Positions 35,613-39,857 of a DNA stretch of 49,534 nucleotides are shown here, piece by piece (position 1 is the first letter of the stretch; each line of letters opens with the position of its first letter). Source of the stretch: Sedimentisphaerales bacterium (lineage in GTDB: Bacteria > Planctomycetota > Phycisphaerae > Sedimentisphaerales > Anaerobacaceae); assembly GCA_016932095.1 (NCBI GenBank), contig JAFGDN010000021.1, forward strand, positions 1 through 49,534, written 5' to 3'. A program made the translations under genes and the position numbers. The notes below the pieces were generated by a model. It saw only the letters and a list, made by a program, of their open reading frames with translations. It ran no database searches and was not told where the DNA came from.

Positions 35613-35678
35613 ATCCTTTCCTTTGTGTTCGGGGAACCCAACCCGGACCGACTGGCAAGCAAACATCGGCCGTTTTGT

Positions 35679-35774
35679 AATTTTCTATTTCTTATTTTCT
35701 ATTTTCTATTTAACTGCGGAAACCGTCGCCAATTCTTTTTCAAATAGAAAATCGAAAATAGAAAATTGAAAATC
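35679..35774. repeat. Inverted TTTTCTATTT-type repeat
   Basis: Three tandem TTTTCTATTT units (35679-35711) face three complementary AAATAGAAAAT-type units (35741-35774) across 29 bases and could form a long AT-rich hairpin between the Hc1-like and FabZ-like genes. Confidence 0.6.
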
Positions 35775-36577: not shown

Positions 36578-36717
36578 TGTTATTCCTTTCAAGAATTATC
36601 GGACTTGCTTTCTGTTTTCTGCATTGTTTTCATAAAGTTCGTATTTTTCCTTTTTTCCCTTGACTTTTTGGCCACACTGGTCGTATATTATCATTAGAAG
36701 CTTTGTTTTGAAAGATT

Positions 36718-36770
36718 CCGCCTTGATGATAAGAGCCCATGGGGCTCTCCTGCTGAGGTAGTCAAGGCGG
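36718..36770 (-). ncRNA. Structured RNA candidate just downstream of the DUF3800 gene
   Basis: CCGCCTTGA (36718-36726) pairs perfectly with TCAAGGCGG (36762-36770). Inside it, AGAGCCC (36732-36738) pairs perfectly with GGGCTCT (36742-36748) around a three-base loop. On the minus strand the outer stem begins 8 bases after the DUF3800 stop. Comparative work has described several conserved RNA motifs linked to DUF3800 genes; I infer but cannot show that this is one. On the plus strand a T-run follows, so a terminator is the alternative. Confidence 0.5.
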
Positions 36771-36778
36771 TTAGCTTT

Positions 36779-37450
36779 TTAATAGTACAAAGTTTGTCCC
36801 GACTCAAAAATATCAAATTCACTTTTAATTCTGCTGTTAATTAAACCATAGCTTCTCATGTCCTGTATTTCCCACTTACGGTAAATCGCCCAATTGCAAT
36901 AATCCGCTACCTGCAAACCAAACCCCGATTTCGATGCGTGGTGTAAAACCCGATAGTGCTTTCCGATGGGCTTCATCACTTCCGATAACACAATTTTTAT
37001 CGCCTTTTCCACGGCTTTGCGCTTTTTCTTAACGGGTATTGCGTCTGTCGTTACTATAACAGCGGAATACTTGCTGAGGTTTTCAGGCGTGCAAAGATAT
37101 CGCAGTAAATATCCGAGCATCTTTGGATAAAACTTGTCAACCTCTCTAAATGACGGGTTTGTTTTTCTTTTATCCACTACAACGGTATCTATACGAATAT
37201 TTGGAAGATGGTCGGATATTATCTCGAATACTTTACCACGGACATTTTGCCTGTCTTCCGCGGCGTGAAAGTATTCCAGGTCAAGGTCTTCTTCTATTAA
37301 ATCATACTTCAATGAAGTAAATGCTTCATAAAATGTAAAAGGCCGTGTCATACTCACTGCCGTAATTGTAAATTTTTTCGTCCCGTTCGACGAAAAGTCG
37401 AAGTTCCCTCCTTCGTCTAAAAATATATAGAGGCAACTGTATGATGCCAT
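36779..37450 (-). CDS. DUF3800 domain protein
   Basis: A 223-residue protein with the family start YIFLDEGGNFDF (acidic residue after a beta strand) and end GLQVADYCNWAIYRKWE (Asp), the conserved acidic residues of an RNase H-like fold. Function is unknown; the family is frequent in phages and mobile regions. The start at 37450 has GGAG nine bases upstream. It follows the LolA-like gene by 16 bases on the same strand. A structured RNA candidate follows its stop. Confidence 0.82.
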   Translation of the reverse strand: MASYSCLYIFLDEGGNFDFSSNGTKKFTITAVSMTRPFTFYEAFTSLKYDLIEEDLDLEYFHAAEDRQNVRGKVFEIISDHLPNIRIDTVVVDKRKTNPSFREVDKFYPKMLGYLLRYLCTPENLSKYSAVIVTTDAIPVKKKRKAVEKAIKIVLSEVMKPIGKHYRVLHHASKSGFGLQVADYCNWAIYRKWEIQDMRSYGLINSRIKSEFDIFESGQTLYY

Positions 37451-37466
37451 TAAAAATATCTCCATA

Positions 37467-39209: not shown

Positions 39210-39857
39210 TTATGCGCCATTATTTTTCCTCTGCGGTCTCTGCGTTCTCTGCGGTGAGTTCGCCTGCTTGCTTTCAATAATCTCGATTATCTCTGGTATA
39301 TTTTCAATAACAAAATCAGCGTATTGTGCAAATTCCTCGGCCTTGCGGTGGTTTTTCAAAAGCACGCTGACCGCTCCCGCCGCCCTTGCGCAGAGCAAAT
39401 CGAAAAGATAATCGCCCACCACCATTGCCTCCGCCGGCTCGATACCAAATTGTTTGCACAGATACCCGACCCCAAAACCATCCGGCTTGACCGGACCTTC
39501 ATCCCTGCCCACCGCCGCGTCGAACTTAAAACCGTGCTTCGCCGCCACCGCCGAAGCGTTACTTACCTTATTCCGGGTCAATATCCCGACACGGATACCT
39601 CTTTTGCCAAGCTCTTCGAGCGTCTCTTTCGCCCCGGGATTCAAAGCCGATTCCGCAACCGCCCTTTCCTCGTGCCGCTCTAAGATTTTCTCTGCGGCCT
39701 TTCGCTGCTCAGCAGTCATCTTCTCCATCAATTCCAGTATCGGCCCCGCGTCCGGCGAAAAACCCATCTCCTCCCTAATCGCGTCAAAATCGAAAAAAGG
39801 CCGCGTTATAGTCCCGTCCAGGTCAAAGATTACAGCTTTGATTGCCATATTAAACAT
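39210..39857 (-). CDS. HAD-superfamily phosphatase (phosphoglycolate phosphatase-like)
   Basis: A 215-residue hydrolase: motif I VIFDLDGTIT (nucleophile and acid Asp), motif II GILTRNK, motif III Lys near VKPDGFG and motif IV MVVGDYLFD. The small cap fits sugar- or glycolate-phosphate substrates. The last 12 residues (RTQRPQRKNNGA) come from a CGCAGAG-type repeat and are probably not part of the fold. Start is 39857, or ATG at 39848. Confidence 0.87.
   Translation of the reverse strand: MFNMAIKAVIFDLDGTITRPFFDFDAIREEMGFSPDAGPILELMEKMTAEQRKAAEKILERHEERAVAESALNPGAKETLEELGKRGIRVGILTRNKVSNASAVAAKHGFKFDAAVGRDEGPVKPDGFGVGYLCKQFGIEPAEAMVVGDYLFDLLCARAAGAVSVLLKNHRKAEEFAQYADFVIENIPEIIEIIESKQANSPQRTQRPQRKNNGA
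39228..39258. repeat. CGCAGAG-type tandem repeat inside the HAD gene end
   Basis: Four imperfect units of CTCTGCGGT/CTCTGCGTT type. A short relative may lie at 1869-1912. Such repeats are widespread in intergenic DNA of many uncultured bacteria. Confidence 0.55.
39301..39323 (+). repeat. 23-base direct repeat, copy 2 (inside HAD gene)
   Basis: Identical to 38301-38323. Here, read on the minus strand, it encodes YADFVIEN of the phosphatase, so this is the original copy. Confidence 0.85.

Follow-up and report, generated by a model that had tools for sequence, protein, structure and literature searches.

Within the window, by which we mean the whole stretch of 49,534 nucleotides analysed here, a gene for a DUF3800 protein runs on the minus strand, and the sequence beyond its stop codon appears to hold a separate small RNA (sRNA) gene of about 75-85 nt, convergent with it (Table 1). 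The first-pass annotation had described, 8 nt after the DUF3800 stop, a 9-pair outer stem and a 7-pair inner hairpin separated by an asymmetric loop. The distance and both helices are exactly as claimed, 36718-36726 pairing with 36762-36770 (P1) and 36732-36738 with 36742-36748 (P3), but the supposed loop conceals a third stem, P2, in which 36749-36751 pair with 36756-36758, and the fold is thus a three-way junction. Compared with dinucleotide shuffles, of which none in 200 folds as well, the 53-base stretch is far more stable on both strands (z -4.3 and -4.4), and a simple terminator scan of the window did not list this branched stem.

Table 1. Features of the DUF3800 locus, in window coordinates
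Feature	Position	Strand	Evidence or remark
DUF3800 + sRNA unit, absent from congeners	36590..37466	.	Empty sites in G002 and G003
Candidate sRNA promoter, TTGACT-18-TATATT	36660..36689	+	Consensus scan 10/12; such matches also arise by chance
Small RNA gene	36696..36782	+	Model R1, 78.6 bits; 5' end inferred from promoter
Conserved core of small RNA, matching model R1	36711-36782	+	
Conserved 5' strand AAAGATT (consensus AAAGGTT)	36711..36717	+	Conservation in relatives
Three-way junction P1/P3/P2	36718..36770	+	38 sequences: 97.3% of cells paired, double-sided changes in 16/20 pairs
U-run after P1, intrinsic-terminator-like end	36776..36780	+	Overlaps DUF3800 stop codon
DUF3800 protein, 228 aa, RNase-HII-like fold	36779..37465	-	PF12686, AlphaFold2, 1eke

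A protein search for relatives recovered 71 loci in genome contigs and 3 in viral contigs, 35-64% identical and spanning more than 15 phyla as labelled in the sequence records; inspection of the bases past each stop codon revealed the same structure in almost all of them. A covariance model, R1, was built for the sRNA. The first-pass annotation had held that a lack of covariation in homologues would tell against a structured RNA, and alignment of the sequences downstream of the DUF3800 genes gave the opposite result (Table 1). The covariation score for 38 sequences is 0.515, compared with 0.212 for shuffles, none of 500 of which scored as high; sliding the partners by one column lowers pairing to 54-58%, and RNAalifold, unprompted, recovers the same three helices. 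Across the relatives P1 has 9 pairs, P3 has 7 and P2 has 3-6, the last usually ending in a GNRA or UNCG loop; in the window, P2 is 3 pairs long and closes on GCUG, an uncommon loop. In the 5' strand, A1-A3 and T6 are invariant and G4 and G5 are present in at least 90% of sequences. A short ORF inside the sRNA was rejected, since its ATG is not conserved and is ACG or CAA in some relatives.

Which strand encodes the RNA? Four signs agree in pointing to the plus strand, opposite to DUF3800: among 72 distinct sequences, G-U cells outnumber A-C cells by 31 to 7 on the plus strand (p 1e-4), and GNRA or UNCG tetraloops cap P2 in 46 of the 72 when read on the sRNA strand, compared with none on the gene strand; at 67 loci, a sigma-70-like consensus score upstream of the sRNA averages 8.67 (reverse strand 4.46, p about 1e-10; shuffles 5.46), and U is in excess after P1 on the sRNA strand relative to the gene strand (p 2e-8), these p values being optimistic, since cells and loci are not independent and some sequences are close relatives. 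The promoter-like stretch lies most often 5-9 nt before the AAAG at these 67 loci; for the window, the position of the candidate promoter predicts a transcript start about 14 nt ahead of AAAG. A structured RNA is associated with the DUF3800 gene, as had been proposed, but it does not appear to be attached to the DUF3800 transcript; it is instead encoded convergently as a gene in its own right, with a predicted promoter. Correcting the strand also disposed of a candidate guide RNA whose 3' flank varies, as that flank is the promoter side, and the guide role that had been suggested finds no support in an RNA with almost no variable unpaired stretch.

The RNA and the protein are found together with few departures. 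Model R1 finds the RNA at every locus with a complete gene and flank, if weakly (29 bits) at the most distant locus, L085; the exceptions, L088-L090, have a gene that runs off the end of the sequence. When 27 genomes were searched whole, 26 had one copy and one had two, and the genome of the window has a single significant copy, a second match of 18.5 bits not being credible. Carriers number 1 of 392 genomes in the phylum of the window, with the RNA beside DUF3800, and 4 of 295 in one alphaproteobacterial family, with all four RNA matches likewise beside DUF3800. A pattern scan of viral contigs for the RNA without the protein turned up three candidates, all of which lack the fold. The RNA thus seems to be restricted to one clade of DUF3800 proteins, with near-obligate pairing and sporadic presence. 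Six loci (L079, L081, L084, L086, L087 and L120) have a broken or altered DUF3800 with an intact RNA, and none shows the reverse, an excess that is partly to be expected since the RNA is a ten times smaller target; assembly errors may also account for some of the breaks. A Nitrospira genome carries a second RNA copy (L120:440-924), where the adjoining DUF3800 lacks its first ~100 residues and contains a stop.

The protein matches PF12686 over residues 13-197 (E 2.3e-9). Its AlphaFold2 model (pLDDT 92.4, pTM 0.89) finds its best solved folds in RNases HII, H2 and HIII (Z 10-12; top match RNase HII 1eke, Z 11.9, 12% identity), followed by Argonaute PIWI domains (Z 8-9); a PDB sequence search with the protein found no relative. 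In RNase HII, a DE pair on strand 1 is followed by an aspartate that ends a later strand and by another in the following helix. Residues D17/E18, D141 and D188 of the DUF3800 protein match this DEDD set by order and secondary structure, not by superposed coordinates, and D17, D141 and D188 are present in 43 of 43 sequences and E18 in 42. An RNase H fold has been reported earlier for DUF3800, and some Cas12a2 (V-A2) and VI-F loci are accompanied by DUF3800 proteins (PMC10910872, PMC12669027). The model points to a putative nuclease with an RNase HII fold and conserved acidic active-site residues, which differs from RNase HII and H2, its closest folds, in coming with a partner RNA gene.

How does the RNA relate to those already described? 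Eleven classes of DUF3800 RNA have been published, and a conserved structured RNA adjoining a DUF3800 gene is of the same general kind. An Rfam search of the region, on both strands and with E up to 10, gave one chance match only (E 9.4), and the window RNA did not match DUF3800-IX (RF02968) at that threshold. The best relative, L093, searched alone, aligns on the sRNA strand to DUF3800-IX positions 1-67 of 67 with 27.9 bits, short of the gathering cut-off of 36.8, and in a joint search of 20 relatives L119 was alone in reaching E 10 (DUF3800-IX, 23.2 bits). The comparison with published models that had been proposed at first pass gave matches below the cut-off in relatives and none for the window RNA itself. 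Both L093 and L119 have the DUF3800-IX consensus topology at full length on the sRNA strand; among the Rfam models searched, which may not cover every class, neither the window nor its relatives matched any other DUF3800 class. DUF3800-IX resembles the R1 RNA in its order of P1, hairpin and hairpin, its conserved UAG joint and its U tail, all on the same strand, whereas the junction and stem sequences differ, and model R1 scores a true DUF3800-IX member at only 10.4 bits. The RNA of the true member L136 (60.5 bits) likewise faces a DUF3800 gene in convergent orientation, and the DUF3800-IX partner is a distant DUF3800 protein (E 8e-12 to the window-clade profile). Because of the sub-threshold full-length match and the convergent arrangement shared by L136, the two appear to be sister classes that share an architecture, the window class being new, which fits the original suggestion of a member or a new type. 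A DUF3800-IX RNA at L137:1501-1568 (48.1 bits) has no adjacent DUF3800 and neighbours an Abi_2 gene (PF07751, E 1e-8); it is possibly an orphan RNA.

The window unit is flanked by a flavodoxin-like and a LolA-like gene. In the congeners G002 and G003 only about 45 nt separate these two genes, identity being 74-79% to either side, and the extra ~875 bases of the window consist of DUF3800 and the sRNA only; G001 has other sequence at the same site. Gain in the window lineage seems a simpler reading than loss, and is favoured because the pair is so rare. Terminal repeats were looked for around the window unit and none was seen; an apparent link to an insertion sequence, through a 14-nt match at contig ends, proved to be a chance match. 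Two plasmids also carry the pair, one conjugative (L144) and one a megaplasmid (L145), and so does the temperate Gordonia phage Kenna (L146, RNA 60 bits), where it adjoins the immunity repressor; the DUF3800 protein of the phage is only 27% identical, yet the RNA is still present. The explanation favoured below starts from a two-gene RNA-protein module that spreads horizontally.

Some mobile or repeated sequences were recorded in addition. An int-alpA RNA (RF02996, 42 bits, above its cut-off) at L107:1656-1722, the same site as L048, lies about 100 nt from the sRNA and suggests an integrative element. In the window, positions 35674-35773 hold an AT-rich inverted repeat that is dispersed on both strands in its own genome and in congeners, and positions 39220-39258 a short repeat with many copies in the same genomes. 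About ten contigs of this genome share the same terminal ~85 bases (contig ends L003-L008), which probably belong to the end of an insertion element present in many copies, at which the assembly broke.

Among 66 loci, counting genes within two of the pair, an hsdS-like gene is found at 17, an hsdR-like gene at 12 and either at 22, and Pfam and PADLOC tallies back this type I restriction neighbourhood. McrBC and integrases are further neighbours of the relatives, and a ThsB TIR gene adjoins L052. The window copy, in contrast, lies among housekeeping genes, with no restriction or other such neighbours, and restriction genes are near only about a third of loci; both points count against the defence reading favoured below. 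PADLOC assigns the window protein to DUF3800_VII (E 2.5e-9) and the L136 protein to PDC-M04A, a candidate defence family. DUF3800_VII, an effector of type VII retrons, belongs to the same DUF3800 superfamily as the window protein, but no reverse transcriptase gene was recognised beside the window copy, and its partner is a small sRNA.

Three Chloroflexi loci (L081-L083) have the RNA directly upstream of the ORF and on the same strand, in the order promoter-like stretch, RNA, U-run, purine-rich stretch, ORF. Apart from the purine-rich stretch, this is the order of type III toxin-antitoxin systems (ToxIN, TenpIN, CptIN), which likewise combine a small RNA with a nuclease-like protein and have the RNA upstream of the toxin ORF (PMC5086642). 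The type III antitoxin consists of tandem repeats, however, with a terminator separating it from the toxin gene, whereas here a single, mostly convergent RNA unit is found; no repeat RNA upstream of a toxin was seen, the upstream position occurring at three loci only and with one unit. The type III toxin is an endoribonuclease of the ToxN/AbiQ fold; for the window DUF3800 the best-matching folds are RNase HII and H2, and no ToxN-fold chain is among the structural matches listed, although absence from that list is not evidence. AbiF (Abi_2) with its ncRNA antitoxin (RCd22) likewise has a structured ncRNA next to a protein, one that is toxic, mobile and linked to phages (PMC12373285), but the protein family is another one, and the RNA lies upstream and has two motifs.

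It is very likely, judging from these genomic patterns, that the sRNA and DUF3800 work together, and the pair is probably an RNA-restrained defence or toxin-antitoxin module. We favour, with a probability of about 0.5, a reading in which the sRNA binds and restrains the putative nuclease in a toxin-antitoxin-like defence module, an antitoxin role being among those suggested at first pass. The sRNA would be made in excess from its own convergent promoter (in some Chloroflexi, on the same strand and just upstream) and would bind DUF3800 through the conserved junction and the 5' AAAGG strand, keeping the nuclease inactive; if a phage attacked or the module were lost, the RNA would fall first, freeing the nuclease. 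Such a mode would be like type III or AbiF-type RNA-restrained defence, outside those families. Restraint is favoured because of the strict pairing, the lack of a guide-like region, the type III-like upstream copies and the broken proteins with intact RNA, although this last point is weak support.

The main rival is that the RNA is an essential cofactor, DUF3800 being active only while holding the sRNA, which would position or recruit the substrate; this might be phage nucleic acid or a partner from a restriction system. Near-obligate pairing and a conserved junction suit such a role, as do the PIWI-like aspect of the fold (Z 8-9) and the DUF3800 proteins of some Cas12a2 (V-A2) and VI-F loci (PMC10910872, PMC12669027). 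We nevertheless think it unlikely, given that the RNA has no variable stretch able to guide and that loci with a destroyed protein keep an intact RNA, weak as that evidence is. Further from probable is a regulatory target, with DUF3800 binding or cutting the RNA encoded beside it, or with the sRNA acting antisense to the 3' end of the DUF3800 mRNA: the convergent transcripts would indeed overlap at the stop codon, but the RNA of L081-L083, upstream and on the same strand, cannot be antisense, and antisense pairing alone would not require the junction bases to be as conserved as they are.

Could the structure simply be a bidirectional terminator between convergent transcripts, the outcome that the first-pass annotation had named as fatal to its proposal? 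The strong stem and the U-run on the plus strand would suit this, but unpaired bases and tetraloops are conserved, the RNA has its own predicted promoter and it is restricted to one protein clade. Because the Chloroflexi copies sit upstream of the gene, a role as terminator only is in the main refuted, and we leave it a very small chance. The least probable reading is that the structure works as DNA, as an attC-like recombination site or transposon end. The absence of the unit from congeners implies that it has probably moved, yet its pairs obey RNA rules on one strand only (G-U pairs, GNRA/UNCG loops), each unit has one copy, on one side only and with a promoter, and the attC core (RYYYAAC/GTTRRRY) was not found on inspection of the window stretch.

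To our knowledge, DUF3800 RNAs have previously been catalogued without a known function. One class now has a strand, a predicted promoter, a fold and a partner protein whose active site can be identified; the two are paired strictly one to one, in a context of defence genes and phages. We tentatively suggest that the pair may represent a new RNA-restrained or RNA-dependent immune nuclease, in which an RNase-HII-fold guard would be held by a convergent three-way-junction sRNA. Such a guard, if it exists, would be carried by temperate phages and within operons of type I restriction in more than 15 phyla, and might stand apart from retrons, AbiF and the type III toxin-antitoxin systems. Only two small genes are involved, so that its function is directly testable.
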